Source: Lepisosteus oculatus
Lineage: Eukaryota > Chordata > Actinopteri > Semionotiformes > Lepisosteidae
Reading direction: 5' to 3'
Assembly (NCBI RefSeq): GCF_040954835.1
Contig: NC_090716.1
Coordinates: 2,095,605-2,159,604, forward strand
DNA length: 64,000 nucleotides
Below, piece by piece: positions 16,197-62,389 of this stretch. The notes under the pieces were generated by a model that did no database searches, was not told the DNA's origin, and worked only from the letters and a program-made list of their open reading frames with translations. A program made the translations under genes and the position numbers. Position 1 is the stretch's first letter. Every line of letters begins with the position of its first letter.

Positions 16197-19100
16197 CTGC
16201 ACAGACAGGAAGAGAGCAGGAAGAAAGCGATCAAGTTACGGTTTCCACTTTGCAGCTCAATGTACTGCTTGCAGGAGAAGGCCGGAGCTCTGTTTGTGGT
16301 GCAGAGAGTGTGCAGTATTTCACTGTCTGTGAACATGTGGCCCTGAAGCTGCAAACCCACAGCTGAGAGACCGAGTGACTCAGGCCACGCAGAACATCCT
16401 TCAAGCCTTCATCACTTCGACAGGTTTAGGAACACATTGAGCATATATCCACCCTTACGACCAGGAAGGTCAACAAACAGAAGCTAAAAAAAAGCAACGC
16501 CTAAGCAGATCACATAGAAAATATGATCTAGGCCATGTGCAGTAGTTTTATTTCCAGTAGACAGCAGGGTACTTTGGCAATCTGCCCCAATGCTTGTGCA
16601 CATACATCTTACACACAGCTGGCCAGACGGTGCGTTATTAGTCAGCAGGCAGCGCTGGAGAGGGCGTCTCACCTCGAACAAGATGACGAAGCCAAACCTC
16701 ACGGCCAGGATGAGCCAGTACTGAGAGGTGTAGGTGTAGTCTTCACTGTTCCTGTAGTCCTTGTAACTGCGGAGACAATAGTTGCAGACATGCAAGCTCT
16801 TGCCTTTAAATAATAATAATAATAATAATAATAATTGCTTACACTTATATAGCGGTTTTCTGGACACTCCACTCAAAGAGCTTTACATGTAATGGGGACT
16901 CCCCTCCACCACCACCAGTGTGCAGCCCCACCTGGATGATGCTCCAGTCCTCTCACACACACCAGCTCTCAGTGGGGAGGAGAGCAGAGTGATGAAGCCG
17001 ATTCATAGATGGGGATTATTAGGAGGCCATAATTGGTAAGGGCCAATGGGAGATTTGGCCAGGACACCGGGGTAACACCCCTACTCTTTCCGAGAAACGC
17101 CCTGGGATTTTTAATGACCACAGAGAGTCAGGACCTCGGTTTTACGTCTCATCCGAAGGACGGTGCCCGTCACTATACTGGGGCATTAGGACCCACATGG
17201 GCCGCAGGGTGAGTGCCCCCTGCTGGCCCCACCAACGCCTCTTCCAGCAGCAACCTTAGTTTTTCCCAGGAGGTCTCCCATCCAGGTACTGACCAGGCTC
17301 ACACCTGCTGAGCTCCAGTGGGGCTGCCAGTTGTGAGTTGCAGGGTGATATGGCTGCTGGTCATAAATCAGAGGCCAGGACACCTGCACTGCCTTATTGT
17401 GCACGTTCACAATCCATAGGCCAAAATGCGAACTTCTCACCCATCTGACACACTGTTACTGAGCCTGCCTGCACTCTAACCAATGCCTGATTTAAATTGA
17501 TTTGAAGCACTGACAATCAGAACTTGCAAACAAGAGCCTTTTGCACTATAGAGCAGACAGGGTTCCAGACATGGTGTCTCTCTATTCTGCTATCTGTAGC
17601 GCAGGACTCTATGCTTCAAAACCACATCGCTTGAAACACCCTGCTGTCATCCAACAGGCATCACTTCAGCCTGAGCACAGCCCTGTGCATAAAATATTTC
17701 ATTTTAAATCAAATATTTTTATTTTGTCAGGGAGGCTGCGATGATCTAGCTGTGGTTCATGAAATCGCAACACCTCTCGGCCAATACACTAACAGGAAAT
17801 TGTCAAGACTAAGCCGGCGCAGAGGACAGAGGTCTTTCAGGCGTCGCTGACCTGCAGTGGGTGACGTTGAGCCCTTTGTAATTCAGCTGACTGGGCAGAA
17901 AGTCCTTCTGGATATTCTCATCTGACACCGAGACGGTGGACAGGGTGTTGTTGATGTAGCCGGTCATACAACTGGAGGGGAGAGGGAGGAAGAGGAGAGA
18001 GAGGAAGAGTCAGCTCCCTGAAATATCAACGCACGGAGGGGCAGCGGGCTCGTTCAATCAAGGTGAAGGGGCAGATAATCCAAAAGAAATTGCACATTTC
18101 CCACTTTTCATCACTGTCTGCTTGTATTCCTCACTAACAGTCAGTGTAAGAGTCAGTATGGGTTGAGCACAAAAGAGTGAAAGTTTCATTACTTATATCT
18201 CGCAGAAAACAGACACAGAATGTAGGAATTGACACAGAATGTAGGAATGTTTGAATGTAGGAAGATAACTGGAGAAAATCCCAGCTGCTGGTGCAGGCTC
18301 TGCGTCTCCCAGCAGAGTTTTCCTGGATACCAGTGTGGAAGCTGGAGTCAGGCTGGAGACGTGCGAGGGGTGGAAGGCGGAGGCGACCGATGAGACCCAC
18401 TGGAGATGCGTGGCCGTCCCGTTGGCGCAGGGACCGTAGCGGTACTTGTACACCAGGCGAGGGATGAAGTCGGACGTGATGCCGATGACCAGGCCGTTGG
18501 CTATCACTGCCAGCACCCCCACCGCCTTCAGCACGTTGTACCACACGCCTGCGGGGGCAACAGGGAGGCCGCGGTAGTGCCAGTCAGGATTCTGAACACA
18601 GCGGAGGGCAGACTGGCACTCACAGACTCTCACACCCACATTCATACTCACACTATCTTGCACACTGATTCACACACACACACACACTGATGCACACTCA
18701 CTTACACACTCACTCATGCACACTCACAACACAGTCTCACACTCTCACGCTCACTTACACACTCTCATGCACACTCACAACACAGTCTCACACTCTCACA
18801 CACTCACTTACACACTCTCATGCACACTCACAACACAGTCTCACACACTCACACACTCACATGCACAGTCTCACACACTCACACACTCACAGTCTCACGC
18901 TCACACTCACTCACAACACAGTCTCACACACTCACGCTCACACTCACAACACAGTCTCACACACTCACAGTCTCACGCTCACAATCACGCACACCCACTT
19001 ACACACTCTCATGCACACTCAGTCTCACACACTCAATCACAGTCTCACGCTCACTCACTCGTGCACACTCTCATGCACACACTCACAACAGTCTCACACA

Positions 19101-22100: not shown

Positions 22101-24387
22101 ATAGTTCCCGGGACGCCCATTGATCCTGATGGGAAAAGACCAGAATTAGGCTACTCGCGCTGCCAGACTGGGACCCAGGAAGCCACGAGGTGTCCTACAG
22201 CTCCTTAGCATTTCATTCCCTTTCAATCCTTCCATCCATCCGGAGGGGCCAGAGCTTATCCCGCAAAGCAACAGGCGTAAGGCAGGATACACCCTGGATG
22301 GGACGCCAGTCCATTTCGGGCCACACAGACAGTAACACGCACACACGTGCACCAGGGCCAATTTTTCCAGAAGATAATGAACCTACTAGTGTTTCTGGAC
22401 TTTGGGAAGAAACCAGACCACCTACATGGGGAGAGCACACAAACTACGCATTTAGCACCCCAAGAATTAAACCCAGGGCCCCAGCACCTGCTCACCACTG
22501 CCACCCCCTTTTTATCCTTATTCCTTTAAAAGGCAAAAGTGCCATCATCCCGAAGCCCGAGCTGTCCTTGGGCAAAAACACTCAGAGCAACTGTGCGTCC
22601 CGGCTCGGGGGAAATCTCAGTCACAGTCGGCTAGTGCCGGTGCCACGACCTGCTCGAACCTGCAGCACTTGAGCTGTCGGGCCCAAGCTGCAGTCTGAGG
22701 GACCGCCTTTAGATGTCGCGTCACCTGGGAGCCCCAGGAAGCCCTGGTCATGGGCGTACAAGGACAGATGCCAGACTAGACCCCACCCAAACCCCAGCAT
22801 TCCGATCAACGAGAAGAGTCTCGACTACCGGGGCTGGAACAGGGAGGGAGGGCAGAGGGCAAAGGGCAGGGGGCAGAGGGCAGAGGGCAGGGGGCGGGTC
22901 TTACCTCCCCAGAAAGAAGGCCACGTAGATGAGCGAGGAGAAGAGGGTGAAGAACTGGAAGGTGAACATCTTGACGGTGAAGCTGGTCTCCGTGGCGGCG
23001 AAGGAGCGCGTCTTCTCTGCGGGACGACAACAGAACTACGGTTTGTGTCTCCTCCGTGTTAAGCTTAGTGCTGCACCGGCAAGCAGGGTTAGCCAGCGTC
23101 AAGGGGCTCTGAGTTCAAATCCAGCATTCCACACCACAGGCCAATCTTACTGGGGGGATCTGCGCCTGTAGATGGAAGGGTATCCCACCGCAGGCAGAGG
23201 AATCCTACTCCGTTGGGCCCCTGAGCAAGGCCCTTCACCCCAACTGCTCCAGGGGTGCCGTATAAATGGCTGACCCTGCGCTCTGACCCCCAGCTTCTCT
23301 CCCTGTCTGTGTGTCTCATGGAGCAAGCTGGGGTCTGCGAAAAGACAAATTCCTCATACAAGAAATTGTATAGGGCCAATAAAGTGATCTTAATACCTTT
23401 AAGCCCCCATGAGAAAAGCTCAAATATGTGTCAAATACATTGCTTGCTGAACTGATTAATAACTTACAGGGGTTCTCAATCTCTGGCAGCAGGTGACCTA
23501 TAAGAGAGTTGTTGCAACTGCCAAGAGCTGGACAGCCCAGCAGTGCAGGCTGTTGTCAAGCTGTAAGCTACCACACAACCAACAGAGGGAACTGTGGGTC
23601 ACTGTTCTTGACTGAGAGAAACCCCTGAGTACCGAACACACCCACTGACATCACATGTGAATGAGTGTACGGAGAGTTAAAGATTACCTTTCACAAACAT
23701 AAACACTGTGAAATATACATATATAATCAAAGGATAATGTAATAGAGAGAGTAATTATTGCACATACCCAAATTACACAGGTATAAGGCCACTTTCCTGT
23801 TCACCTGGAAAACAAATAGGAACAGTTATAATAGATGACTTATTACAGATAACACTGTGGTTTTGTTCGCCTTTACTGATACGCATCAAAGAACAGAGAA
23901 CAAAACTGGTTAGAGGAAGAGAGATGATGTAACCTCTACCCCATTAACCACAGTGTAGTTTCAAAAAAGTTATTATTACTATTTACCTGGAACAAAGATA
24001 TAAGCACATTATGTGTTAAAGCCAAGAAACTTTACTGAAAAATTCTACTGTTTTGATATCTAATCTTTTGCTGATTTCATAATGGAACATTAAAAGGAAT
24101 GACCGGAAACACACTGGTCTTCAAACACTTTTCACCCTGCGAAATATACCACAGCCGCACACACACAAAGACACACGCACAAAGGCGCGCACGCACACAC
24201 ACACCCAGGCTCGCACACACACAAGGTGCGCACACACACACACACACACCCAGGCTCGCACACACACAAGGTGCGCACACACACACCAAGGCTCGCACAC
24301 ACACACACCAAGGCTCGCATACACACACACACACACAAGGTGCGCACGCACACACACACACCCAGGCTCGCACACACACAAGGTGCG

Positions 24388-24450
<63 letters not shown>

Positions 24451-24766
24451 ACAAGGTGCGCACGGGCACACACTCACACACACCAAGGTTCGCACACACA
24501 CATACAAAGGCACGCGCGCACGCACACACACCCACACACACCAAGGTTTCGCACACACACCGAGGCGCGTGCGCACACGCACACAAAGGCACACGCGCAC
24601 GCACACACACACACACACAAAGGCACGCGCGCACGCACACACACACACACAAAGGCACGCGCGCACGCACACACAAAGGCACGCGCGCACGCACACACAA
24701 AGGCACGCGCGCACGCACACACACACGACAAGGTTTGCACACACACAAAGGCACGTACGCACACAG

Positions 24767-24800
<34 letters not shown>

Positions 24801-27800
24801 CCTCCCCGGACTCCCTGACCTTGGTCATGATGGTGATGGTGAGGTAGTGCAGCACGGCGCCCAGCATCACGGCTGTGGTGCTGGCGTGCTCGCTCAGGAA
24901 CGCCGACTCCGACTCCGACAGCACCACCGTGGCGACCACGCGGAACACCACCAGGGCCTGCGCCAGCCCGATGATCAGCACCAGCTGGGCACACGCGGAC
25001 ACAAGACACAGCGCCTTCAGCACAGCTGGACCGCCACCACCGTGGGTCACAGCACTGCAGCCGCGCAGCCGCCAGGTCTCCGGGGCCAACACCAGGCTCG
25101 GGGGGCTGTATGTGGGGAGTCTGCATGTTCCCCCAGGCTGTCTGTGTATTACTGGTTTCCCCACAGGTTGTGGGATGATTGCCTGCTCTGATCTGCCCCT
25201 TTCTGGGCTGGGCTGGGGTGGGATGGGGTTCACAAGATTCCGACTTCTGAAATATCTCCCCAGTGTAACAGACCCGGCGCAACAGAGGGGGGGGGGAGGG
25301 GGCGTCGCCCCCTCAGCTGAACTGTCCCGCCCCAGTCTTGGTCAAAAGGACTTCTGAACACTTCTGCATACTTAACTTGCGCCCTAAAAAACAGTTGTAC
25401 TTTGTCAAGGGTCAGATAACTACACTCACCCCGCATTCACAGTTACTGCATCGGACTGCTTGATGTGCAGGAGGGCTATCTGCCCAGGACCGGCACCTAT
25501 TCCACAGTGTCTGCCTTACTGGGCGTCGACATTATTACGATCTTGTTAGCTCGGGTGGACCGATTCCTTGCAGTAGTTTATCCTTATACTTACAATCGAT
25601 ATATAACTAGGACCGTAGTTATAGAAGTTGGTGCTTTTACAACTCTTTTTTCGTAACGATTCAGAAGCTCGTTACTGTCGATGTAGCTGCACAAATGAAC
25701 GCACCCGGTATTTTCTCGCTCCAGGCCATAAATGTGCTGTTTAGAGCCAACTATGATATTGTGACAGTTGTTAGTCCAATGACTTTGTTCTCCATACTTT
25801 ATCTTTGATAGATGATAGATGCAATAGGGATTTTCTTCCACTTTGATATATCATGTTTAATAATGAAAAGCACAGAACAGTTTGCGGGAATCAGTTCTTA
25901 ATGTAATGACTTCATTGCCCACAACTTTTCTCAGAAGATTCGAACTGTTCTGTGACTCAACATGAGTTCCGCATAAGCGAAATCTGTCTGTTCAAATCAG
26001 ACAAGTTTTCAAATGGTTAATCCTTAAACCTTTAACTTCTGGTAGATTTAGCAGGGCGTTAATTATAATGAAAGTTATTACTGGTAATCACAATTGTTAC
26101 AGGAGCTGGCTGTGCACCTCTGAGCTGGACGGTTCTGACCCTGGCTGTGTCCTCAGTAAAACTGCTCAAGAGCTACAATTACAGAGGCTGGTTCTCCCGA
26201 AAGCCCCAGTGAACCCTGGAACAATTACTCCCCATTCTTGAACTACTAACTTCAATTAGCTCAGTCAATTGGCTTCAATAAGCTCAGTCAATTGGCTTCA
26301 ATTAGCTCAGTCAATTGGCTTCAATTAGCTCAGTCAATTGGCTTCAATTAGCTCAGTCAATTGGCTTCAATTAGCTCAGTCAATTGGCTTCAATTAGCTC
26401 AATTTGCTTAAATTAACTTAGTCAATTGGCTTCAATTTACACAAAAATCATCTTCAATTAACAGTCAATTGGCTTCAATTAACAGTCAATTGGCTACCAA
26501 CTACCTCACAGACCAGGAGGGCCACATGGCCTCCTCCTGTTGTGTCCTCTCCGATGTTCGCCCCCTCCCGTGCGCGTGTGGCAGCCCTCGGACTCGGGCC
26601 AGGCACTCACCATGAGGGTGACGAGGATCAGGACCAGGGTGCTGCGCAGGTAGGAGTGCAGGTAGGGCTGGGGCTGGCAGGAAGGATTGTCCACCACGTC
26701 CAGGATCAGCTCCTCCTGCGGGACGACACAGCGGGGCTGGTCACGCCGGGCAGACCCTTCTCCACCCCCACCCCCCAGAACCGCAGACTACAGGGGCCTC
26801 GGGTCCCTGCCCTCAAAACCCAGAAAGTCGGAACGGGACCAGAACAGGGGGGAGAGAGTCAGGAAAAAGCTGCCCAGCCATGCGTCCAAAGCCGAGGGCC
26901 TGGTGTCTTTCAAGAACCAGCTGGGATCCATGTTCTCATCTGCTCCCATGACTGGCCCCTGTTTCTGCCCTTTCTGGTGTTCTTCTGCTCATGTCTTCGG
27001 GGGTCAGGACCTGCTGACGGGCCCAGTCCGTTTTCAGTCGTACCGATTCCCTGTTCTAAAACCAAACACGACACACTCCCCAGAACACTCACAGTACCTC
27101 CTCCTCACACCAGTTGAACACTTTCCACTTGCAGACGTACTCCGCTCGATGGCGCTTCCAGAACTCCAGGAACACGGTGGCTGGGAACAGCAGAGACAGC
27201 CGGGGGGAGATGTGAAACAGCGAGGGTCTGGGGCGAGCGGCTGAGATACACTCGTACACACGTGTGCGCACACACACATGTACATGCATACACGTGCACA
27301 CGCACACACTCATGCATACACACACTCACAACAACATGCACGCATAGGTTTACACACACGTACACACACTTGCAACAACATGCACATGTATGTTTACACA
27401 CACTTGCACGCACTTGCAACAACACGCACACATATATTTACATACACATACATGCCCGCACACACATGCACACACACACTGGTCTATTACAGCATGATGA
27501 ACCCACACAGAAATGCAAAGATACAGACATATACTGTACGGTTCAGCACACATTTTTGGTGAATGTTTCTTTGCACGTAAAAAAATCTCTATATATTTGT
27601 ATATTAATACCTGTATATAAATGTAACGAATTATGTGAAACACTTTCCTGTGCCTCCTGGGGCACAGAGACTCACCCCACACGGCCATGAACATGGCGAA
27701 GAACACAGTGCCCTCGTTGTCGAATAGGTGGGTGACCTGCGGGGACAAGGAAAGGCTCAGGTTAGGGGCTGTGCTGCTGACCGCTGACCGCTGACCTGTT

Positions 27801-30800
27801 CCAGCCTGCAGCTGGTCAGGCTCAGGGCAGGGGCCGTGCTGCTGACCGCTGACCGCTGACCTGTTCCAGCCTGCAGCTGGTCAGGCTCAGGGCAGGGGCT
27901 GTGCTGCTGACCGCTGACCGCTGACCTGTTCCAGCCTGCAGCTGGTCAGGCTCAGGGCCGGGGCTGTGCTGCTGACCGCTGACCGCTGTCCTGTTCCAGC
28001 CTGCAGCTGGTCAGGCTCAGGGCCGGGGCTGTGCTGCTGACCGCTGACCGCTGACCTGTTCCAGCCTGCAGCTGGTCAGGCTCAGGGCAGGGGCTGTGCT
28101 GCTGACCGCTGACCGCTGACCTGTTCCAGCCTGCAGCTGGTCAGGCTCAGGGCAGGGGCTGTGCTGCTGACCGCTGACCGCTGTCCTGTTCCAGCCTGCA
28201 GCTGGTCAGGCTCAGGTTAGGGGCTGTGCTGCTGACCGCTGTCCTGTTCCAGCCTGCAGCTGGTCAGGCTCAGGTTAGGGGCTGCGCTGCTGACCACTGA
28301 CCTGTTCCAGCCTCCAGCTGGTCAGGCTCAGGTTAGAGGCTGTGCTGCTGACCGCTGTCCTGTTCCAGCCTGCAGCTGGTCAGGCTCTGGTTAGGGGCTG
28401 TGCTGCTGACCGCTGACCTGTTCCAGCCTGCAGCTGGTCAGGCTCAGGTTAGGGGCTGTGCTGCTGACTGCTGACCGCTGACCTGTTCCAGCCTGCAGCT
28501 GGTCAGGCTCAGGGCAGGGGCTGTGCTGCTGACCGCTGACCGCTGACCTGTTCCAGCCTGCAGCTGGTCAGGCTCAGGGCAGGGGCTGTGCTGCTGACCG
28601 CTGACCGCTGTCCTGTTCCAGCCTGCAGCTGGTCAGGCTCAGGTTAGAGGCTGTGCTGCTGACCGCTGTCCTGTTCCAGCCTGCAGCTGGTCAGGCTCAG
28701 GTTAGGGGCTGTGCTGCTGACCGCTGTCCTGTTCCAGCCTGCAGCTGGTCAGGCTCAGGTTAGGGGCTGCGCTGCTGACCACTGACCTGTTCCAGCCTCC
28801 AGCTGGTCAGGCTCAGGTTAGAGGCTGTGCTGCTGACCGCTGTCCTGTTCCAGCCTGCAGCTGGTCAGGCTCTGGTTAGGGGCTGTGCTGCTGACCGCTG
28901 ACCTGTTCCAGCCTGCAGCTGGTCAGGCTCAGGGCAGGGGCTGTGCTGCTGACCGCTGACCGCTGTCCTGTTCCAGCCTGCAGCTGGTCAGGCTCAGGTT
29001 AGAGGCTGTGCTGCTGACCGCTGTCCTGTTCCAGCCTGCAGCTGGTCAGGCTCAGGTTAGGGGCTGTGCTGCTGACCGCTGTCCTGTTCCAGCCTGCAGC
29101 TGGTCAGGCTCAGGTTAGGGGCTGCGCTGCTGACCACTGACCTGTTCCAGCCTCCAGCTGGTCAGGCTCAGGTTAGAGGCTGTGCTGCTGACCGCTGTCC
29201 TGTTCCAGCCTGCAGCTGGTCAGGCTCTGGTTAGGGGCTGTGCTGCTGACCGCTGACCTGTTCCAGCCTGCAGCTGGTCAGGCTCAGGTTAGGGGCTGTG
29301 CTGCTGACCGCCTGCAGCTGGTCAGGCGCATGGCAGGAGCTGTGCTGCTGTCCACCCTCAGGCTGTGCAGGGCTTCAGCAGTGTATCTAGTGCTGGCCAG
29401 ATGTGCACAGACCAGCCTTCAACACTACTTTATATTGGCATATATACTGACTGGCACTGATGCCCTCATATCCTATTCCTGCTCTTAATTTAGGAGCCAT
29501 AAGTAACCACATTTTTTTTTTGTTTTCTTTCTTCTGCTTTCCTGAAAATGTGTGACATTGCACCCCATATTTGCCCTCTAATGAGGTTCCAGGAGAATTA
29601 AAGCTTTTTTTGCTTTGATCTAAAACCTGGACTGACAGTGTGATGGCAGGACCGTTTCACTGCCAGCCTGCAGGAGGCGCACAAGGGCATCGCCCTGCTG
29701 CAGTTTGAGGCATACCTTAGCATAGGTGCAGGTCTCTGAGAGCTGCCACACAGGACACTTCTTATCACACAGCGGGCACATCATGGTGTTGGCATCGCAC
29801 ACCTCTGAGCTGCCAGCACACAGACACAAGAGACAGATTCATCAAACAAAAACTGCTTTGACTTTGTTATTTGTTCATGACAACAAAACATATTACATTT
29901 CAAAGCCTTTAAAGACATTTAAATAGCAGGTTAGGTGGTGAATAGATAATAGAAAATATAAATTGATGACCTTATGAAAATGTGCTATATGTTCTGCCAT
30001 TTTCTCATTCATTTACTATGCTTATACTGCACATCTGCGGTGCTTTGCAGTGTACAATGCTTTTTCCTTACCTCTCTGTGCTTTTAGCACAATTGAACAT
30101 GTCTTACTGCCATTCTTCCAGTTTTTACAATGGCCTACCAAGGTACAGTTTTCCACACTTTTAAATTTCTAAACTCGGTGGAGTTGTCTGCCCTTTTCCA
30201 CAGTGCCTTTACTCACATGACGGGGTTGTTATCGAAGAAGGCTAGTCCATTCAGGAACACAACCATCCCCAATATAGCAGCAGGGATCAGCAAGGTGGTG
30301 TACCAGCCCAGCCACAGGAAATACAGTGCCACCTTCTCCCCGAGGTAGTTCCTGACACACACACACAGACCCATCAGATAGCCCTGAGGCCACAAGCCAA
30401 CAGACAATATGCACTTCATAGCACAGATGCAAATAAAACTGTACCCTTCCAGGCTCATTTGACTATCTAGCTCGTGGACTGATTGAATGATTAGATACTG
30501 CAGGCCTGTGGGCTACTGATCACATTACAGAAGGTCAATATATCACATGATTGAACGTGCATTACGCCTTTATATGTTCACAATCGCATGTTACGCTAAC
30601 TGCATTAAGTTTCAAGTTCCAAATTCCAAATATAGGAATAGGAAGAACTCCACCATATTAAAATGTGCAATTTTCCTACAGCACGTCCGTGTGCCTGTAA
30701 TATTAATAGCAGTGCAACAGGATATGCCCAAGTATATGCTACCAGGTGGATAGGTTTGTGCTCACTCCGTTATGTGCTCGGTGTTTTGGCTGTTCAATTC

Positions 30801-33800
30801 AATGAGGCAATGTTGTGCCTAATAGCAATCAATCTTTTTTTCCCCAAACTAAGAAGTGCTTTGCTTAACTGATTAACTGATTAATTAAGTGCTTTGCTTA
30901 ACTCATTTAACTCATTTAACTGAGGCCTACGGTCCTCACCGCACATCATCGATGGGTTGCCACTGGAAACAGGCTGTCCAGCGCGCCCATTTCTCCCTCA
31001 GTTCTTTCTGTTTCTCCTCCTGAAAGCAAGAGACAGGTGTCAACACTGGACAGTTGACCGTTTGTCATTCCAATCAGTCTGCCGCGTACCGAGGATTAAA
31101 GGAATCTCTTTATCCTGAATTCAAGAAGGTGGTGGGGATATTGGGAGAGAACCGGAATCCAGAGAGGGGCTGATGAATTCAACCCAAACTTCCAAAGCAG
31201 CGCATACCCAGGTCTAGAGGGCAGGAAGAGCTCAGAAAGAAGGGAGGTCTGGTATAGCCCGGTCTGCTCCACTGGCTTCTCAACAGCCAGCAGCCATATC
31301 GCCCTGCAGCTCCCAGCTGGCAGCCCTACTGGAGCTCAGCAGTGTGAGCCTGGTCAGTACCTGGATGGGAGACTCCTGGGAAAGCTGAGGCTGCTGCTGG
31401 AAGAGGTGTTAGTGGGGCCAGTAGGGGGCGCTCACCCTGTGGTCTGTGTGGGTCCTGATGCCCCAGTATAGTGTCGGGGACACTGTACTGTAAAAAGGCG
31501 CCGTACTTCAGATAAGACATAAAACTGAGGTCCTGACTCTCTGTGGTCATTAAAAATCCCAGGACGTTTCTCGAAAAGAGCAGGGGTGTTACCCCGGTGT
31601 CCTGGCCCAATTTCCCCCTGGCCTTTACCAGTCATGGCCTCCTAATAACCCCCCTCTCTGAACTGGCTTCATCACTCTGCTCTCCTCCCCACTGAGAGCT
31701 GGTGTGTGTGAGGGGACTGGAGCATCATCCAGGGGGGGCTGCACACTGGTGGGGGTGGAGGGGATCCCCATGACCTGTAAAGAGCTCTGAGTGGAGAGTC
31801 CAGAAAAGTGCTGTATAAGAGTAAGGATATTATAATAGAGTGGCACTGCTCTAAAAATATATCTACCAGGGTAACCGAGGGTATAACTCAGGCCCCCCAG
31901 CAGACATAGGAACTACCTGAACCAGCAGGTTTGCAGGCCAAAGGTGTACTCTTGTGCAGAGCACTGACAAATTGTTAGACATCTGAAGTTCAAGGGTGAG
32001 AGTGCAGAAATGGGCAGTCATGCCAGGGAATTCCTCACTCAGCGATGGAATGCTGTCCATCGTTTTTGACAAGCAATCGTTCGATGTGGGTTTTTTTGTC
32101 TTTGACCTCTACGGGGTGATGCGAGGTTTTCTATATTTTTCGGCTTCAAGTCAGAGAAGTGAAAATGGAGATACTGAAGGAGGTTTCAAGAAAGAGAGAA
32201 ACGAAGGGTGGGGTTTAAAAGAATGCAAGAGGCTCGGAGACCAGCCTGCTTGCGTAGCTGTGCATATTTACCTCGTGCAGCGAGAACGTTGTTTCAAAGA
32301 CGTGCTCATGAAGGAGGTCCTTCAGCCCCTCTGAAAGAGAGGACACCAGAAACACTGAGCACCCTGTCAGACAGCAAGGTTTACTTTTCCTAAATGAAAA
32401 TGAGAGGGATGTACATAACTGCCAGTTACCACCTCTGTGGGGTGCTTAGGTCTCTATGTAGTAAAAGGTGTACTGGATGCCTTCCTCTCTGGTGTCACAT
32501 TGGTGTGAGTCGTGGGATACCGAGATCTGTTCTCTCCAGGAACAAACTGAGAAGCACAGTCTGAGAGTCTCCCCAAGCCCTACACATACTTTTAATTTAT
32601 TCCCCAAACTCAAAATTGACTTTTGCTCTTTTGTTTCTATCAGAGGGTGGTGGCCAGTGTGGTCTTTTATGCATGTATGTGTTGTGAGGGGGGGGGGACA
32701 TACAGAAGAGAGACTCTGTTCGCCTTAACAGAGTTATGAAGAGGGTGGGTGCCATTATTGGGACACAGTACGGAAGAGGCCACGCTTATAGTGGGGGATG
32801 TGTGGAATCCTCTCCACACAGAGATCCTGGATCAAAAAAGCCTCTTCTGCGTCATTCAAAATCCCGGGGCGCATCTCGAAAAGAGTAGGGGGTGTCACCC
32901 CGGCATCCTGGCCAAATTTCCCTCGGGAACTCTCAGGTGTAAGTATCCCCGCTGCACCACAGAGAGCTTTAGGAGATCCTCTCCTCCTTCAGCCACTCGT
33001 GCGCTGATTAGCTCCAGAGACCTCTCAGGCATCTTATCCTGGACTCTTACTGGTCTTGTGCACTGCGTGGTGTGATCAGTCGTGTCACTCTCTGGAGAAT
33101 GTACAGTACGGTGCCTGCCTGTTCTTAAGTAATTGGCATGTCTGTGCAGTGTTTCATATTATTTATTGTATGTGCATGAGCTGTGCCCGGCAACTGAATT
33201 TTCCCCCTTGGAGATTAGAAAAGTGTATCGTATTTTTCATTTTTAAGGTAAGAGTGTTACTGCGATATCATTCGCCAGAACGACCAAGAGAGATCCAGCA
33301 ACCCAATGTCAGGTGGTGGGCTTTAGAGCTCATCTGATGCTTAGAGGTTCCTTAGGCAAGTTCCTGGTCAGATCTGGGCTCTGAATACACATCTTACATA
33401 CAAGTTAAAGATTGCAGCGATGTAACAGACATGTAAGTGAAGGGACACTCACCTCCATTATTGAGATAGGTGTTAAAGAGAATGAAGTGTGCCACCCTAA
33501 TCCTGGAAGATAAAATCATTATATTTTAGGATCAGATAACTTCCATGGCGAAATAAGAACATGGCGGGCATCTGTGTAGGATATCTGGCACAATTCGGTT
33601 ATCCGTGACTAGGTTATTGCTTGGGGAAAGAAATGCAATTAGCACAATGTCCAATGTCAGGTTAACTTGTTCACACTTGCTGAAACTCTCCCTGGGCCAG
33701 TTTAGAACGAACATTTTAATGGAAGAATAGTCACCTAGTGTTGCACAACAAGGACTGTGATAGAGAGACAATGGAATCACACAAATTCCGATCGATCCAT

Positions 33801-36800
33801 AGTTGATCATTGCCTAGGGCCTACGAAATGTTTAGGGCCTACAAAGGAGGGAAACAGTAGTGACTAACGAAAAACGAGCTGGAACAACATGCTTGCGGTC
33901 AACTCTCGGTGCTCCAGATCAATAATCCTACACTATTTAGTGCCTGTTCTAGAAACTAGAAGTATTGAAGTGATGGTCACTTGACTCGCTCCATCAATCA
34001 CGTGGTTTAACATTTAATAATAATAAGAATTGCTTACACTTGTATAGCACTTTTCTGGACACTCCACTCAGAGCTCTTTACAGGTCATGGGGATCCCCTC
34101 CACCCCCACCAGTGTGCAGCCCCACCTGGATGATGCTCCAGTCCTCTCACACACACCAGCTCTCAGTGGGGAGGAGAGCAGAGTGATGAAGCCAGTTCAG
34201 AGAGGGGGGTTAGTAGGAGGCCATGGCTGGTGAGGGCCAGGGGGAAATCTTATAGTTTAAAGTGCGTCATGTCAGTCGACATACAAGTAGTTCAATTGGC
34301 GTTTCCCCCTCTTTTTCGGGGGTGAAAGTGCCTAGGGCCTGCGAACAGTTTTTGATGCAGTTTCCCAGGCCTCAGCGGAAGAGTCCCACACTGTCTGACA
34401 CGCAGGGACCAAGAAACTGCATCAAACGTTTCCACCGCAAATGTCCTGGACCCCGCCGCAGCGGGCTGGAGAAGGGGGGCTCACCTGGTGGGCTCAGAGA
34501 CCGAGTCCCTCAGATCGCCAATCCAGTTACAGGAGTCGGACACCTTCAGCAGGTACTTGTACTTGAAAAAGATGTCCTTGGGGGTCCGGATCCCATAGAA
34601 TGTCTTTTTCCCGTACACACAGGACTGCAAACACACACAGAATCACTGGCCCGCCACACTCTGCGTAGAGGCGCATTCCTTTTTGCAGTGGTTAAATAAA
34701 CTCAGCATTTCAGTCCCTCACTCAGCCCCCCACCCCCTCAGACAAAGGCAAAACCCTGGTGAGATGAACACGTCGGGCAGTTTCTTGGGGGCTTGCCAGC
34801 CGCCATTTGATTTTTCAGCAAATACGTGAAACTTTGGGAAAATCGATTTTTTTCATGCCGATTTTAAAAGAGGGCTAACTCCAGCGCCCTACTGTGTCTA
34901 TGCAAACACAGAATGACCAGCTCAGCGGAGAAACAGGCGCTTGCCTCGGAGAAACAAGCTGCCCGGGTGCTTACTGTCGAAGAAAACTCTTCACTCAAGT
35001 GAGGTGTGGTCAGTCCTTCATGCATGCACATGAGGAGGATAAGATCATGCAGACCTGAGAGCAGTCTCTCATCCAGATCTGTAAGAATCTATCCCCCTGA
35101 GATGATGAATACAATAAGTTTTATACAGCAAATCCACACAGGGAAGCTCACTCTAAGTTTCCATATGAGGAGATGTTTTTTCTCTCTACAAACATTCTTC
35201 TTGGATGTAATATTAATGTCAAAAGGTCAAATAATATGCTTGAATTATCCTTTTATTCTGTTGCTAAGCAGAAAAGCATATGAGCTTTATAAATAGTCAC
35301 AATTTTATATACTTAAAAAAATGTTAAAATTCTTCCTCATCATATACATTAAGCACAGGGACGGGAGAAGACAACCTTGTACTAATCAATCTACTGTCTC
35401 CACACGCCCCCTCCAGCCGGTGACATCATTGCCATGGCAACAGACAGCAGGCGCGTGATGTCATAATGACATGCGGGGCCTTGGGCGCTGATGTGACCTC
35501 ACCGCTATCTGGAAGCCCTTGTTCTCCAGTTGCTGGATGAAGGCCACCTGCTTCTTGTGGCTCTCGCTCTCCTGCTCGTCCTCTATGTTTCTGCACACCA
35601 GCACGTAGTCACACGCCCCCTCCTAATGATGGAAGGGCAGCAAACACATCACTGAGTTGAGCCATCATGGAGCACCATCCAAAAGCAAAAGAAGTTGGTT
35701 TGCAGAAACATCTCATTATTTTATATCGGAAATATAAAATAAAATAACGTATATCCACTGTTAAAAAATAATGAATACATATTCACTATTTTCCTGAAGC
35801 ATCTCAGTGTTTCTTAGACTGGAGAGGTCTGTTATTATCAAGTGAATTATTGATAATAATTGCTGATCAGCCTGCTGTATTTGCAGAGATCTGCCAGTTT
35901 GCTGTGGGATACTAACTGAACAGCAGACGGGTGGCATGACTTTCTTATGCTCTTACGGGCGGAGCATAAGGCTCTGTGGCTCAGGATCTGCGCCTGTGAC
36001 TGGAAGGTTGCTGGTTCAAATCCTGCAGCCGGCAGAGGAATCCTACTCCGTTGGGCCCCTGAGCAAGGCCCTGAACCCCAACTGCTCCAGGGGTGCCGTA
36101 CAATGGCAGATCCTGCGCTCTGACCCCAAGCTTCTCTCCCTGTCCGTGTGTCTGTGTCTCCATAGAGAGAGAAAAGCTGGGGTATGCGAAAAGACGCATT
36201 CCTAATGCAAGAAATTGTGTAGGGCTAATAAAAAAAAAGAAACAGTCTGTCATTAGACCTGTGGGCTTTGAGAGCCGGGAGGGCCGCAGTGGCAGTGTTC
36301 TGCCTGATGATGGCGCTGTTGCAGCAGTAGAACTGCTCCGCAAGCCGAGAGAGCCCCCCCCTCTTACCGCGCTCAGCAACGCGGCCGCCTCTTCACAGCT
36401 GTGGTTGTTTCCCACGTTTTCTTCGAGCTCGATGCAGGCCTGGGAAGATATTTCAGGGTGGGAAAGATTCGGCACTGATGAGCGCATTTCAAACTGCAAT
36501 GAATGTAAAATGTGCGCAGTGACTTGTAAAACCTCCAGCTGACATCACAAAGTAAATTTCCAGGTGTGCGCAGCGCCATATTCTGCGATTCAGAACGAGG
36601 CAACAGAATTTCTGGTTAACGTGTAGCAGCTCTATTACACTGCCAACAAGCAGGCTTGTGAATCCGGCTCTTTTAACCTAATAGAAACATCGCTCTTGAC
36701 TTTGAGGTGGTTTGGTCGGGAAATACTACTTGTTAACTCTGCATGTAGATCATGTGGGAACATTTCTGTGGTGAAATGTCTGCTGCACAACCTGTACCTA

Positions 36801-47235: not shown

Positions 47236-47241
47236 TTTATT
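47236..47241 (-). terminator. tssc4: candidate tssc4 poly(A) signal AATAAA
   Basis: A canonical hexamer on the minus strand, about 680 nt past the tssc4 stop, followed by a GT-rich stretch. Confidence 0.5.
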
Positions 47242-47917: not shown

Positions 47918-48949
47918 TCAGTCTTCCTCGTCTCTCCCCACGGTCTTCCGGAAGTTCTTCCGATTCACCTTCCGGCTGGCGTTGAATCCCACCGCTGCCA
48001 CCAGTGCCTCGGCTTTGTCCCCACGGTCCTCCCCGGCCCACTTCCTCTTCCTCGCCCTTTCTCTGGGCTTGGCCATCCTTTCCTGGCCGGCGTCGTTCTC
48101 CTCTTCCTCGGGCTCTTCCAGGTGGAGCAACCCGAATTCCTTCTTGCCCCCGCCCTCCTTCTCCCCCAACGGGCCACGTCTCCCCCTTCCAGGCGCCTCC
48201 TCGGCTCCCGGCGCGTCGTCTCCTTCCCCCTGTCCCTCGGGATTCCCGGGAGCATCCAGCGGCCGGCCGGGTTTGGAAAAGACGATCCTGCAGCCGGAGC
48301 TGCTGGAGTGGTCCTGGTTGAATGCCGGAGTGAAGGGCTCCTGGTTGTCCACCGCCCAGCTCCGCTTCCTCCTCTGCTGCAGGGTTTCTATGTACTCCTG
48401 GGCCACAGCGGCATTTTTCGCGCTGCTGGTCTCCGGCACGTCTTCCAGGCTATACTTGGTCCAGCGCTCCGGGTTCACCAGGTAATCCGGCACGGCCTTG
48501 GAAGACGAAGAGTCGGGGGGCGTCTTGCTTCTCGCCTTGGGGGCGTCTTCGCCGCCGTCCCTCTTCCTGCTGGCCGGCGGCAGCGGGCGCACGAAGGTCC
48601 GGTCGATGAGGTTGTCGTCTCCCAGGGAGGGCATGGCCAGCTTGGCGGCGCTCTCCAGGCAGTCGAAAATGCTCTGGCTGCGGGAGGAGAATCCCGTGCT
48701 CGTGCCCTTCAGCTGGAAGAAGGGCCCGCGGGGCCCGGCGGGCTCGGGACGTCCTGGGGCAGCCGGGTCGCCCTCGTCCGAAGAGTCGCCGCTGGAGGAG
48801 GAGACCACTTCCGGATCGAAGTGGGGCACGGAATCCTCAGGGTCGGAGTCGCTCAGGGACACCGTGTCCGAGAGGACGACGGCGTCGCTGTCGGGAGATT
48901 TGCTGGTCACTACGTCCGACATATCGCTCCCGTCTTCCTTCTCGCACAT
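47918..48949 (-). CDS. tssc4: TSSC4, U5 snRNP assembly factor, single coding exon
   Basis: One uninterrupted frame of 343 aa (human TSSC4 is 329 aa). ATG at 48949-48947 is preceded in frame by TAG ACC, so the start cannot lie further upstream in this frame; the ACC ATG context is favourable. The N-terminal third is acidic and serine-rich. Conserved segments include SRSQSIFDCLESAAKLAMPS, NLIDRTFVRPLPP and, as the family signature, VPDYLVNPERWTKYSLEDVP. The C-terminal third is rich in Lys, Arg, Glu and Pro and looks disordered, ending KKEFGLLHLEEPE and a basic tail. The mammalian protein is an intrinsically disordered nuclear factor that binds PRPF8/SNRNP200-containing U5 particles and promotes U5 and tri-snRNP assembly. 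Identity rests on the signature motif; the role is from the family. Confidence 0.93.
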   Translation of the reverse strand: MCEKEDGSDMSDVVTSKSPDSDAVVLSDTVSLSDSDPEDSVPHFDPEVVSSSSGDSSDEGDPAAPGRPEPAGPRGPFFQLKGTSTGFSSRSQSIFDCLESAAKLAMPSLGDDNLIDRTFVRPLPPASRKRDGGEDAPKARSKTPPDSSSSKAVPDYLVNPERWTKYSLEDVPETSSAKNAAVAQEYIETLQQRRKRSWAVDNQEPFTPAFNQDHSSSSGCRIVFSKPGRPLDAPGNPEGQGEGDDAPGAEEAPGRGRRGPLGEKEGGGKKEFGLLHLEEPEEEENDAGQERMAKPRERARKRKWAGEDRGDKAEALVAAVGFNASRKVNRKNFRKTVGRDEED

Positions 48950-48952
48950 GGT

Positions 48953-49018
48953 CTAGATGTCAGTGTGTGGCTCAACGGCTGCGAACAGGGACTTCCAAAC
49001 GCCCAGAGAGCTCACCGC
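48953..49018 (-). CDS. small-protein gene, coding exon 3 and stop
   Basis: Follows a CTGTTCCAG acceptor and encodes AVSSLGVWKSLFAAVEPHTD plus I, then TAG at 48955-48953. The same exon continues directly into the tssc4 reading frame. Confidence 0.66.
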   Translation of the reverse strand, partial: AVSSLGVWKSLFAAVEPHTDI

Positions 49019-51178
49019 CTGGAACAGGAAGGGAATTTCTGTGTTAATAATATTGTCACGATATTCACTGCACAATGCCGGCTGCTAGGCCAGAGTGGCA
49101 GTAACACTGGAGGTGTTATCATCTGCAAAGCTGCGAGAAATGAACTGAACCCCAGGTATTTTAACATCATTTTGGCGGGTCCTGTACGGGGAATTTAGCG
49201 CGTCCATAAACTACACAAATGAGATATACTGAGGAATGTCAAGACCATGTAGAAGCTACTGTTGCCTTAATGATGTGTAAGAATAATGGTGGATGGATGC
49301 TGCACACTGGTGGGGGTGGAGGGGATCCCCATTTCCTGTAAAGCCCTTTGAGTGGAGTGTCCAGAAAAGCCCTATATAAGTGTAAGCGACTATTATTAAT
49401 TTGATGTCCGATAAAAGGAGTCTCCCAAAAAGCTAGCAACCCTCACATGCACATGCAATTAACTGCTACCTACAAAATGGGCTAGATGTCAAATGGCCTC
49501 CTCTCCTTTGTAAACTATCCCCCGTTCTTTCAGTAACATGTGCAATGAATAATGTGGTGCACACTGTATAAGAAATGGACCACTAAATTCTGGTGCCCCC
49601 AGGCCCTGCATACATGTCTACCAGTTACTGGAACTACACAACAGAGAGCAACAACCTCACTGGTCCGTATATCGGTAGTAAGCTCTAGCAGGCTACGCTG
49701 GGGACCCCCGTGGGAAGGAGAGGACGAGGGTGCATCGACAACGAGCCGCACCCCCCCCCGCGCCGGCTCACCTGTTCTTGCGACTGCAGCAACTTTCCGC
49801 TGTCCGGGTCAGTCAGAGCCACCAATCTCTGCAGCTCCTCCACTCTGAAACGTACCGGGTGAACCCAGGCACGAGCAAAACATTCAGCTTTTAGAACACT
49901 TTAAGGACGTTTCCAGACAGCAAAGACGACCGAGGACGGGGGAACTGTACACCGGAAACAAAAGCACAAAGATCAGACGCCACATCCCGCGGCTCTAAAA
50001 CCACTCCGAAGTCGTCACACAGATCACATGGCGCGTGCATCTTCTGTATGGGGGGGAAAAACGCCCTTTGTGGTCTGGGAGTGCAATCGGGATCTTTTCC
50101 ACTCCACTGGCTGGAGAAGCAGGCCGGGGCAGCGAGTGTACACATCTTTCCTGAGACCAGCAGCTGTCTGAGGTTAAAGAGGAGACAGCTGCTGTGCTCA
50201 GGAAAGACGACAGGCGACCGATTTCTGCAGAGAGGAGGAGATCGACGGCAGCAGAGCTTCAGAGGGTTTGGAAACAGGACTGGCGCTGCTGCATGAAATT
50301 TGATCTCATGCGTGTAATCTTGCAAGATTGATCAACTGCTCAATGTGTACACTTGCATTTTATTTTTTTTTGTGAAGATAATGCTACTGAATCAAGGATT
50401 AGAATCAACTTGGAAACTACAGTGTCCTCTGGTGTGTGAGATCTCTGAGGGAAAACTAGAGTACTGCTGTAGGTGGTGTTGGTGGACCAGTAGGCGATGC
50501 TCTTGCCTCTGGACCTGAACTTCCCAACCAGTGTTCCTATGTGGCGATCATGGTGCCATCTTTCAAAGGGGCTGTTAACCTCACTAATTACCCCAGGGCT
50601 GTGTGAGAGAGGAGGGGTGCTCACACTGCTGTCCTGACTCTGGGCTCTACAGTCTGGACAGTAAACTGACTCCTGACTGCTGGGTCACTAGAGACCCCAG
50701 GGCTGTGTGTGAGAGGAGGGGTCCTCACACTGCTGTCCTGACTCTGGGCTCTACAGTCTGGACAGTAAACTGACTCCTGACTGCTGGGTCACTAGAGAGT
50801 TTGTGAAAAGCAAGGGTGGTAACATAGTGTCCTGGCTAAATTATACTCTGGTACTATACAACCTCCTTCATGTAAAGCTCCCCTTTAATTGGCAAATGTG
50901 AGCAATTTTCCCATTTTCTCTACAGCACAGGGCCCATGTGCAATCAGTTTAGATGTCATGCAGAGCTACGAACTCTGGGAAACGGAACATCCGGGACATG
51001 AGGATTTGGGATTTTGCAGGCGCCGGCGGGGAGTTTGAAACCTGGCACCTGTGGAACTGCAAGGCGGCATCTTACTGGAGGTGCAGACTCACAGGTTCTG
51101 GGTGCTGGCGAGGATGGTGCTCAGTTCGGACAGGATGCCAGCTTTAAGAGAGCGAGAATCGGCGCCCGTCTCTTCCAT
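48953..51178 (-). CDS. unrecognised 74-aa protein, three spliced exons, directly upstream of tssc4
   Basis: Coding exons are 51178-51093 (86 nt), 49844-49772 (73 nt) and 49018-48953 (66 nt). Acceptors TTTCAG and TTCCAG and donors GTGAGT and GTGAGC are good, and the frame stays open across both junctions (225 nt including stop). The start codon has G at -3 and G at +4. The protein begins MEETGADSRS and contains a Leu/Ile-rich amphipathic stretch (about 12-38: ILSELSTILASTQNLVEELQ and on) and a second one with GVWKSLFAAVE. The stretch looks helical, possibly coiled-coil. No signal peptide or membrane segment is seen. Its TAG is separated from the tssc4 ATG by a single ACC codon, so both frames would share the last exon. 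I do not recognise the family. It could be a conserved microprotein or a long upstream ORF. Confidence 0.7.
49299..49398 (+). mobile_element. 5S-headed SINE, copy 12, 3' fragment
   Basis: GCTGCACACTGGTGGGGGTG to TGTAAGCGACTATTATTAA. It lies in the intron between the last two exons of the small protein gene. Confidence 0.78.
49772..49844 (-). CDS. small-protein gene, coding exon 2
   Basis: Encodes VEELQRLVALTDPDSGKLLQ plus SQEQ and ends in phase 0 at ACAG/GTGAGC. There is no stop in the frame required by both neighbours. Confidence 0.7.
50591..50800. repeat. ~104-bp direct tandem duplication
   Basis: CCCCAGGGCTGTGTGAGAG to GGGTCACTAGAGA occurs twice in a row (second copy from 50695), almost identical, so the duplication is young. 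Confidence 0.9.
51093..51178 (-). CDS. small-protein gene, coding exon 1
   Basis: Encodes MEETGADSRSLKAGILSELS and eight more residues, ending in phase 2 at CT/GTGAGT. The exon itself begins at 51218 (acceptor CTCCCAG), giving 40 nt of 5' UTR. Confidence 0.68.
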
Positions 51179-52078
51179 GACGTTCCGGTCGTGCGTTCAG
51201 CAGCCAGTCAGCCGGGATCTGGGAGAGCGAGGAAGGGGAGAGAGAGAGAGTGGATTGGGGGCCCTAACAAAGTACCTGGCCGTTTGATGACTGAACTATC
51301 TGGCGCCCTCTAGTGAGCGTCCGTGTGTCCCATCATAACGCATCGAACATAAAAAACAACAACAAATGAGTCAACAACGACCTGAAAACGCATGAAAGTC
51401 AAAAACTCATCGCTTCAGTTTGCGATCTCCGAGATTTTTAAGTCTGACCTAGGGTTACCGTATTCCTAAAATAAAAAAACGAGGACACTCCGTGGATTGG
51501 GGGGAGGGGGGGTTGTATGTTTAAGAATCTACCAAATCTGGGATTTATATATTTCAACATTCACGCAAGCCACAGGGGGTGTCGGAGGAGATATCTGCAC
51601 CAGTAGATATTTATACTGGTACTAGAGACCCTGGTGAAAAGGAAAAGGGGTCAAATTCCTCAGGGCCGAGATTTAAGAAGCAGAGGAGCAGGCCAGGAAA
51701 ACCCGGACCTTAGTCTTGCGTGTTTCTGCACGGAGAACAAGCTACAAGACGCATTAGGAACTGAAATATCTTCGCCTTGTCTTCACTACTCGTGTTAAAC
51801 GGGAATCCTTAAAAACAAGGCGCCGGGAAACGATTGCTCTCCGTGTCTGAACACATTTAAAGGCACGACGCTCGGACATTTCGGCTGCTGTATCTGGCCC
51901 TGCATCCCTGTCCGTCTTCCGGGAGCTGCAGACATGCGCCCGAACCGTCGGATTCCGCTACAGTCGCCACAACCACGAACGCATGGACTGCCTTTGGGGT
52001 CGTAAAACAACCCCGGATCCCAAAAAGATCAGAGTTGTTATTTTCATAACAGAAACTCCCACCACCCCTCCATCTTAC

Positions 52079-52140
52079 CTTTCTTCCCGCGAAGTCAGGT
52101 TATTCTCTGCGCTACTGCATGCCGGATAGTGTAGTCTTTC
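52079..52140 (-). other. tssc4: candidate non-coding first exon of the small protein/tssc4 unit
   Basis: A strong donor AAAG/GTAAGA has its last exon base at 52079 on the minus strand. It faces the acceptor at 51218 that opens the exon with the small-protein ATG. The start site is not visible; the end given is approximate and set by the promoter motifs. Confidence 0.5.
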
Positions 52141-52188
52141 ACTGACGTAGACCCTTATTGCCCACAATCGAAAAACTACAACTCCCAG
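52117..52188. promoter_or_regulatory. paired ZNF143-type motifs and CRE-like site
   Basis: ACTACAACTCCCAG at 52175-52188 matches the ZNF143/Staf motif core (ACTACAAnTCCCAG). GCATGCCGGATAGTGTAGT at 52117-52135 resembles the same motif in inverted orientation. TGACGTAG at 52143-52150 is CRE-like. Such clusters mark housekeeping, often bidirectional, promoters. The site lies just upstream of the candidate first exon. Confidence 0.6.
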
Positions 52189-52744
52189 TTTCCAAGAGCA
52201 AGCGGAAATCCTGTAGCAGGTGGGGTGGGGGCTGTGTTTGTGGTAAGTAGTTAATGAGCTTCACGCTGCTTAGGTTAATGTAAGTGCAAGTCTGGCGATG
52301 GTGGATCTAGTGTTACAATTTACTTGTCCCGTGCATGATATTGTATTTTGTTGTGGTTATATAAAAATGTGTATTTTTATCCCTTTGCCTTTTCCAATTG
52401 CTACATGCGGATACAGGAGACCTAACTCTCAGGGGCCTCTAGGGGGCGGAAGGGACACGTTTATAAAAGCAGAACAGCTTGTTCCGATTCTAGATGGAGG
52501 TTAAACCTTTGAATAACTATTTTTTTTTAAAAAAAAAAACAAGTCATTGCTGAGAGATTTGTGTTATTATGTGAGTGTCAGGGTGTATTGTGAGCAATCA
52601 AGGGGGAAACGCTGAGATAATGTGCCAACGATGGAAAATATAACTTTTTAATAACCCCTCTGCTCCTACTGTATTCAGGATCCCCATCTACTGTCTCCTC
52701 TCACTGTGTGTTCTCATTGTGCATATCTTGTTTTTTTATCGTTG

Positions 52745-59741: not shown

Positions 59742-60954
59742 GGAGTTAAGTGGTTAATTACCCCCCCCCCCCTTCCCCCAGAAAACCTGGGCCGTCGGGT
59801 CCGTACTGAGAGCCTCGGTTCTGAAGCACCCCGGGGGTCAGCCCGAACCCGAGCCCCAGCCCCAGCCCGGCTGCGTGGGCTCAGCTCCTGTCACGGACAT
59901 GCGTTTTCTTGTGCGGACATGTTTACCGACCTATGACTGGGACGGCCTAGACGATTCTTTTTTCAGCGCCCCTGAAACAGACTACTTTCTGAACCTGCAA
60001 GTGAAGGTGTACTATATACATTATCATACTCACACCACGTTCAGAAGTACTGCTTAGCTTACCCTGGCACCGTCCCGCGGTAATTGTACGACAAACTACA
60101 GACAGAACCCAGGCAATTGCGCTAAAACATATTTCATACGGTCCGTAAATCTGTCCAACAGCCCGAAATGTTTCAGATGGCTTTTACGCGATTCTTAGGC
60201 AAGCGGTTTAATTAAAGGTACGTGTCCGCATCAGCTCCGGCCGCTCCCCTCTTGATGAGCTTTACAATTAGCAGAGCGGGTCCCGGACGTCCCCTTTAAC
60301 GGGGAACATTCGCCGACACAATGTTCGGAATTCCTGTAACCAAACCCGCGACACCGCGCCCTCGCCCCTCCCCCGCGGCTGCAGGCGCGTGGAGTGGGCC
60401 TTTGCCAGGCAGGAGGAGGTGGGGGGGGCAGTTTGTTTACTTTCGGCGAGCATCGACGGGCTCCGTGGAGTCTGCCGCTGGAGAATCATTTGTAAGGCAA
60501 AATAATGAGTGGAGGTTCATTTGTATCAGCTAAGCCTTGGGCTGCAAAGCCCACAAAAGAGAAGATACTGCACACCTCTGCCACTGCACGGACCTTACAG
60601 GATGCTAGAATAGAGCACATTTGTGTTTAGATTGCACACTAGGCCGTGCGCGTCACACTCAGTGTAGCCTAGATCAGAATGCACCACCTGCAGACCTGAA
60701 TATCCAGATGAGCCGAGCCAGTGTAGCGGTTTGTATCGAAGGGCCGCTCGAGAGTGGATCGGACCTGGAAGAGGCAGGCAGATGACATCACCAGCCCGGC
60801 TACAGCTCCTGCACAGCGCACACTGCATCCAATTCCCCGCTGTTGAAGGTCTCGAGTAGCTAATGAGCCTGACTCTTCCCAGAGGATCGGCAGTACCAGG
60901 AAGTGTTTGGGCTGCAGGGCTCTCTGTGGTGCTTCTGTGCGCAGTGCTGTGCTG

Positions 60955-61890
60955 TACTGACAGGCAGAGGAGGCACTGATCGCTGCAGCACAGAGCACTG
61001 CCAGGCAGAGGAGGCACTGATCTCTGAAGCACAGAGCACTGACAGGCAGAGGAGTCACTGATCTCTGAAGCACAGAGCACTGACAGGAAGAGGAGGCACT
61101 GGTCTCTGAAGCTCAGAGCACTGACAGGCAGAGGAGGCACTGGTCTCTGAAGCTCAGAGCACTGACAGGGAGAGGAGGCACTGGTCTCTGCAGCAGAGAG
61201 CACTGACAGGGAGAGGAGGCACTGGTCTCTGCAGCACAGAGCACTGACAGGGAGAGGAGGCACTGGTCTCTGCAGCACAGAGCACTGACAGGCAGAGGAG
61301 GCACTGGTCTCTGCAGCACAGAGCACTGCCAGGCAGAGGAGGCACTGATCGCTGCAGCACAGAGCACTGACAGGGAGAGGAGGCACTGGTCTCTGAAGCT
61401 CAGAGCACTGACAGGGAGAGGAGGCACCAGTCTCTGAAGCACAGAGCACTGACAGGCAGAGGAGGCACTGATCTCTGCAGCACAGAGCACTGACAGGGAG
61501 AGGTAGGCAGAGGAGGCACTGGTCTCTGAAGCACAGAGCACTGACAGGCAGAGAAGGCACTGATCTCTGAAGCACAGAGCACTGACAGGGAGAGGAGGCA
61601 CTGGTCTCTGAAGCACAGAGCACTGACAGGCAGACGAGGCACTGGTCTCTGCAGCAGAGAGCACTGACAGGGAGAGGAGGCACTGGTCTCTGAAGCACAG
61701 AGCACTGACAGACAGAGGAGGCACTGGTCTCTGAAGCACAGAGCACTGACAGGCAGACGAGGCACTGGTCTCTGCAGCAGAGAGCACTGACAGGGAGAGG
61801 AGGCACTGGTCTCTGCAGCACAGAGCACTGACAGGGAGAGGAGGCACTGATCGCTGCAGCACAGAGCACTGACAGGGAGAGGAGTTGGAA
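60955..61890. repeat. 41-bp minisatellite
   Basis: About 22 units of GCACTGACAGGGAGAGGAGG plus CACTGGTCTCTGCAGCACAGA; neighbouring starts at 61201, 61242 and 61283 give the 41-bp period. Since 41 is not a multiple of three, each open frame reads a 41-residue protein repeat over three units. Confidence 0.97.
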
Positions 61891-62389
61891 AGTGAGGCCA
61901 GGAAAGGCTTCCCACGAGTCTGGAAGGGCAGGGTTCCCAGCAGTGCCGTGCAGCGCAGGGTTAAAAGTTCAGACAGCGAGGAGCAGAGGAGGCTGTGTGG
62001 GAGCACGTCAGAGAGGGAGCCTCCTGTTTCTCCCAGCGCAGGTCCTCCATGAGCACCGGGGACTCGAGGGCGGCTCGGAAAGACCAGCTGGAATATGTTA
62101 CCGCTGATCAATCGATTGATCCTGGCAGCCACGCCAGGACGAGGCTGCTGTGGTGCGCCGTGGCGACATCAGAGCCAGAAGGAGCCGACAGGCCAGAGAA
62201 AGACAGGCTGCAGGCCTAGGAAAGAGATTCGATTTTTAAGAACTCGATTTTCTTTTCACAGATAAATACAGAGAAGCACAAAACAGACAACTTGACATCA
62301 ACGTATAATACCTAGAACAGTATATGTGGACACAGCTTGTTAAGGTTAAAAAAAAGAGGCATCTGTTACATAGCAATAATAACGTTTGT

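Follow-up and report, generated by a model that had tools for sequence, protein, structure and literature searches.

A 74-codon reading frame directly upstream of tssc4 in Lepisosteus oculatus: a probable bicistronic gene

Does the tssc4 gene of Lepisosteus oculatus encode one protein or two? In the window (the whole stretch of 64,000 nt analysed here, contig NC_090716.1, positions 2,095,605 to 2,159,604), a spliced reading frame of 74 codons stops directly before the tssc4 start codon. A preliminary description of this DNA had proposed a dicistronic mRNA from this arrangement. In our analysis, the locus is best explained as a bicistronic gene with a 74-residue microprotein upstream and TSSC4 downstream, a reading to which we assign a probability of about 0.7.

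Anatomy of the locus

The features needed for the argument all lie on the minus strand of the window:

52079..52120, minus strand: exon 0, a candidate non-coding first exon with the strong donor AAAG/GTAAGA (its G at 52078); the outer (5') limit is arbitrary
51093..51218, minus strand: exon 1, with a 40 nt leader, the ATG at 51178, codons 1-28 and two further bases
49772..49844, minus strand: exon 2 (73 nt), from the end of codon 29 to codon 53, flanked by TTTCAG and GTGAGC
48953..49018, minus strand: upstream-frame part of exon 3, with codons 54-74 and TAG, acceptor TTCCAG
47918..48949, minus strand: single-exon coding sequence of tssc4 (343 codons), Pfam family TSSC4 (PF15264)
47236..47241, minus strand: AATAAA, the first of the AATAAA/ATTAAA hexamers downstream of the exon-3 start and the probable end of the shared mRNA

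Rebuilt from the DNA, the segments 51178-51093, 49844-49772 and 49018-48953 join into one 74-codon frame that ends in TAG (48955-48953), followed by ACC and the tssc4 ATG (48949-48947). This reproduces exactly the three exons, the 74-aa frame and the TAG ACC ATG junction given in the preliminary description. The predicted mRNA holds two complete, non-overlapping frames of 74 and 343 codons on one strand, with a gap of 3 nt between the upstream stop and the tssc4 ATG. The two frames are also in the same phase, separated by a single TAG, a point that had not been spelled out before. The upstream ATG (51178) has a G at -3 and a G at +4, so that the strong context claimed for it is present; the tssc4 ATG has an A at -3 and a T at +4.

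The splice sites were ranked among all 216 GT and 237 AG sites in 52200-48947, using generic matrices that were not fitted to the species. The donor of exon 2, which ends in phase 0, ranked first of 216, and that of exon 1 (CT/GTGAGT at 51092, with T and not G at -1) sixth. Among the acceptors, that of exon 3 (49018) ranked third of 237, while that of exon 1 (CTCTCCCAG followed by ATC, first exonic base 51218) was fifth among the acceptors listed, from the same 237 sites. The acceptor of exon 2 is weak (36 of 237). The "consensus splice sites" of the preliminary description thus hold for three of the four sites that it used, but not for this one.

Upstream of these exons, the donor at 52078 ranked second of the 216 GT sites and likely marks a non-coding first exon. 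The stretch 52200-52079 contains one ATG only, at 52120, which would read ATG CAG TAG, and the observed/expected CpG ratio is 1.01 over 51801-52200, the region of exon 0. We also noticed ACTACACTATCCGGCATGCAGTAGCGC at 52105-52135 on the minus strand, directly before the likely first exon; we take it to resemble the ZNF143/SBF promoter motif.

The identity of the downstream frame is clear. Its product matches PF15264 with an E-value of 1.2e-20 and 74.4 bits (gathering cut-off 27), which places it in the TSSC4 family, and its residues 24-338 align to residues 23-320 of the human TSSC4 chain 7px3_T (E 5.9e-28). Since residue 24 pairs with human residue 23, the tssc4 ATG and the human start coincide to within one residue. 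The frame is intronless, with all 343 codons open in one exon. This fits a retroposed downstream frame, although it is alone no proof of retroposition. A search of the animal's own 1.2-Gb genome (813 contigs, 13 candidates scored) found only one TSSC4 locus with an E-value of 0.001 or lower, namely the one in the window. Neither of two 20-mers spanning the spliced junctions was found in the window.

Other genes and repeats could be recognized in the window, and its gene content is, as far as can be judged, that of a vertebrate. Two exon-like pieces at 4513-4856, on the minus strand like TSSC4, jointly encode a TIR domain (PF01582, E 3.7e-13) and presumably belong to a sigirr-like gene. Anoctamin pieces, which we take to be ano9-like, are scattered over 18193-35622 on the same strand. 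PF04547 is matched at 22905-23016 with 31.8 bits (cut-off 28) and, below the cut-off, at 18193-18669 with 22.7 bits; an anoctamin-dimer piece (PF16178) at 35503-35622 is likewise below its cut-off. The candidate exon at 16084-16196 matched no Pfam family. On the plus strand, a 24-residue stretch recurs in five nearly identical copies across 28202-29287, which makes a repeat array of about 1 kb, and long open frames of a repeated unit (CQCSVLQRPVPPLPVSAL and similar) at 60595-62168 on the minus strand form a minisatellite-like array.

Coding character of the 74-codon frame

We compared the length of the upstream frame with two kinds of chance sequence. The 267-nt leader (taken from one base inside exon 1) was shuffled 20,000 times with its dinucleotide composition kept, and 143 shuffles contained a closed ATG frame as long or longer. 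Pseudo-leaders, joined from splice-bounded segments of the rest of the window, had such a frame in 1454 of 200,000 cases (0.7%) and in 1462 of 200,000 in a second draw; 95 of the 1454 were without a further ATG.

The codon make-up is more distinctive. GC content in the upstream frame is 0.62, 0.42 and 0.72 at the three codon positions. A position model trained on tssc4 gave the frame 1.3 bits; 5000 open shuffles averaged -22.0, and a fraction of 0.0004 of them reached the score of the frame. The position asymmetry (chi-square) was less extreme and was reached by a fraction of 0.0148. Length and tssc4-trained score together were found in only 3 of 200,000 pseudo-leaders, or in 6 of 200,000 of the second draw with the score calculated per codon. 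With a generic vertebrate codon-position model, whose frequencies were not fitted to this species, the frame scored 0.118 bits per codon. None of 127 control ATG frames (at least 60 codons, outside 47.8-52.3 kb) reached this score, and length and generic score together occurred in 1 of 200,000 pseudo-leaders. Each of the three exons, taken singly, scored best in frame 0 under this model, and the alternative two frames of the spliced leader contain 4 stops each.

The generic model is no perfect judge, since tssc4 itself scored -0.04 per codon. Four Pfam-supported neighbour exons scored about 0.27, 0.10, 0.00 and -0.06, figures that were divided per codon and come from an exon scan that itself selected for score, the anoctamin-dimer piece being below the Pfam cut-off. 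Moreover, the figures must not be multiplied with one another, since the tests of the frame depend on each other and a long frame was the reason for choosing this locus. Frame length alone is moderately rare; codon make-up is the stronger evidence. Taken together, they indicate that the 74-codon frame is probably coding. The small protein that the preliminary description had suggested is now well supported in its coding character, through codon-position statistics in one genome that had not been available to that description.

The predicted product is 74 residues long, with only one Met. By eye, residues 9-40 or so look heptad-like; a DPDSGK turn comes next, and then a possible second helix. 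Of 2000 residue shuffles, 7 attained the best helix moment of the product, as did none of 2000 translated open shuffles. For the best heptad window (from residue 13) the signal was weak against residue shuffles (118 of 2000), with 15 of 2000 translated open shuffles reaching it. Pfam yielded no match at E up to 10, in a search whose HMMER filters drop most weak matches, and the PDB returned matches at chance level only, the best with an E-value of 1.2. Judging from its sequence, the product would be small, probably helical and probably protein-binding. Scans of prokaryotic and viral collections with the 74-residue query gave 57 pattern matches in viral_contigs and 276 in genome_contigs, and the TSSC4 query gave 26 in viral_contigs; none of these was confirmed. 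Such scans say nothing on conservation among vertebrates.

It could be argued that the exons are those of a real 5' UTR and that the frame is a chance uORF, which represses TSSC4 and yields no stable protein. Genes number in the tens of thousands, and with a frame of this kind in 0.7% of pseudo-leaders, some such leaders must arise by chance; the lack of a family match for the product would also fit. However, chance frames rarely resemble this one. Of the 1462 pseudo-leaders with a long frame, one reaches the generic score and six the tssc4-trained score, and the control frames do not reach the generic score at all. Every exon favours frame 0, and the amphipathic moment is attained by the few residue shuffles mentioned above only. 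We regard a chance uORF as unlikely.

A predicted shared mRNA and the possible routes to TSSC4

If the upstream frame is coding, it is highly probable that it shares its mRNA with tssc4. The minus strand is free of AATAAA and ATTAAA between 49018 and 47241, and any mRNA that contains the upstream frame should therefore extend over TSSC4 as well. To this extent the dicistronic mRNA proposed earlier follows from the anatomy, that is, from the 3-nt gap and the missing polyadenylation hexamers.

How ribosomes would gain access to the second frame is suggested by the leader. In the spliced exons 1-3, the two starts are the only ATGs, which suits leaky scanning; dinucleotide shuffles of the leader contain 2.0 ATGs on average and none in 6.7% of cases, and are both open and ATG-free in 0.59%. 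On the other hand, the good context of the upstream ATG disfavours much leaky scanning. A leader that lacks exon 1 has no ATG before TSSC4, and one that lacks exon 2 has an upstream frame of 30 codons with an earlier stop, a skipping event that is plausible in view of the weak exon-2 acceptor. Leaky scanning or exon skipping, taken together, would probably be the main route to TSSC4. Classical re-initiation across 3 nt is unlikely. We also considered a special RNA structure at the junction, but the fold there is not unusual (z 0.15). Termination-reinitiation of the calicivirus type, which is marked by a UGGGA-type motif complementary to 18S rRNA before the stop, was rejected as well, since TGGGA is absent from the 267-nt leader and the junction has no unusual fold.

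Three other explanations would give the locus a different output. There may be two kinds of mRNA: tssc4 would be transcribed from a promoter of its own within intron 1 or intron 2, and only the long transcript would give the microprotein, so that neither mRNA makes both proteins in amount. Single-frame isoforms are established at many loci, and the observed/expected CpG ratio of 0.81 over 49601-50000 is compatible with such a promoter. However, with no AATAAA or ATTAAA in between, the long mRNA would still include the complete TSSC4 frame, and we think that a division of this kind is improbable. It is also conceivable that the locus encodes one longer TSSC4 and that the TAG stems from an error in sequencing or from a recent nonsense allele, or else is read through. 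TAG ACC ATG does keep the phase, but this has a one in three chance of happening anyway, and the downstream ATG, with ACC before it, sits at the human start within one residue. The sequence after the TAG is not known to be a read-through context, and a longer TSSC4 seems very improbable to us. Finally, exon 2 could be spliced to an acceptor inside the tssc4 exon and thereby provide an alternative N-terminus. Its end in phase 0 would permit this, with in-frame AGs in the TAG itself, at 48712 and at 48706. These acceptors score only -3.6, 2.0 and 2.4, compared with 8.1 for the one at 49018, and all internal acceptors examined in 49100-48700 for a fusion of exon 2 to TSSC4 proved to be weak. Such a fusion is hardly to be expected.

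For the bicistronic reading, the joined mRNA, the translation of both frames and the mechanism that we infer would be as follows. A leader of three or four exons would encode a real, probably helical microprotein of 74 residues, and the last exon would carry the whole intronless TSSC4 frame. Scanning ribosomes would meet the AUG of the microprotein first and would mostly translate it. TSSC4 would be reached by leaky scanning, since no further AUG intervenes, and probably also from transcripts without exon 1, in which exons 1-3 contribute no upstream AUG. Classical delayed re-initiation would be a minor route, the stop being three bases before the TSSC4 start. The upstream frame would thus yield a second protein and at the same time hold TSSC4 output down, as in STREMI/SLC35A4.

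Relation to known bicistronic genes

Passages of PMC13303939 list STREMI/SLC35A4, MIURF/MIEF1, ASDURF/ASNSD1 and PYURF/PIGY as vertebrate bicistronic mRNAs, report 14 human bicistronic transcripts and propose a "gene symbiosis" model with a retroposed downstream frame. Translated uORFs of ASNSD1, MKKS, MIEF1 and SLC35A4 appear in passages of PMC10506109. A close parallel to the gar locus is STREMI/SLC35A4, where a small upstream frame and an intronless larger frame share one transcript (a predicted one in our case). According to the same passages of PMC13303939, the STREMI start represses SLC35A4, and a similar repression of the second frame would be expected at tssc4. There are differences, too. 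STREMI is 103 residues long, its PhyloCSF is positive, it is backed by long reads and protein evidence, and its leader contains further ATGs, whereas the predicted frame described here has 74 residues divided among three exons, with a 3-nt gap and no ATG in exons 1-3 beyond the two starts. In MIURF/MIEF1, ASDURF/ASNSD1 and PYURF/PIGY, too, a transcript encodes a small protein ahead of another one; these cases have mass-spectrometry or conservation evidence in the passages concerned (PMC13303939, PMC10506109), whereas the tssc4 pair is a predicted one.

TSSC4 is described as a U5 snRNP assembly factor in passages of PMC8206348 and PMC8934646, and it is this protein that the downstream frame matches (PF15264). 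The upstream frame is not described in the TSSC4 passages of these two papers, and the word "UTR" is absent from their main texts. TSSC4 is likewise absent from the main text of PMC13303939. More generally, among the matches listed in our search of open-access main texts, we found nothing on point about TSSC4 as a bicistronic, uORF or microprotein locus. The earlier statement that such a locus was not previously known is borne out within these texts and no wider. On this comparison, the TSSC4 locus probably joins the known vertebrate bicistronic mRNAs as a previously undescribed case.

A more far-reaching possibility, which we consider quite doubtful, is that of an ancient vertebrate gene pair in which one mRNA yields both the U5 snRNP factor TSSC4 and a helical microprotein not described before, in shares set by splicing. 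If this were true, the weak exon-2 acceptor and the skipping of exon 1 would let low spliceosome activity raise TSSC4, and a splicing factor would feed back on its own leader. The one-frame-per-transcript habit that is usual in gene-finding rules causes upstream small proteins to be missed. Should the upstream frame be conserved, the locus, with two AUGs, a 3-nt gap and a common phase, would be a clean natural case for the study of second-frame access, and the frame would add to vertebrate proteomes a protein without a Pfam match, encoded beside the splicing factor whose level it would control.
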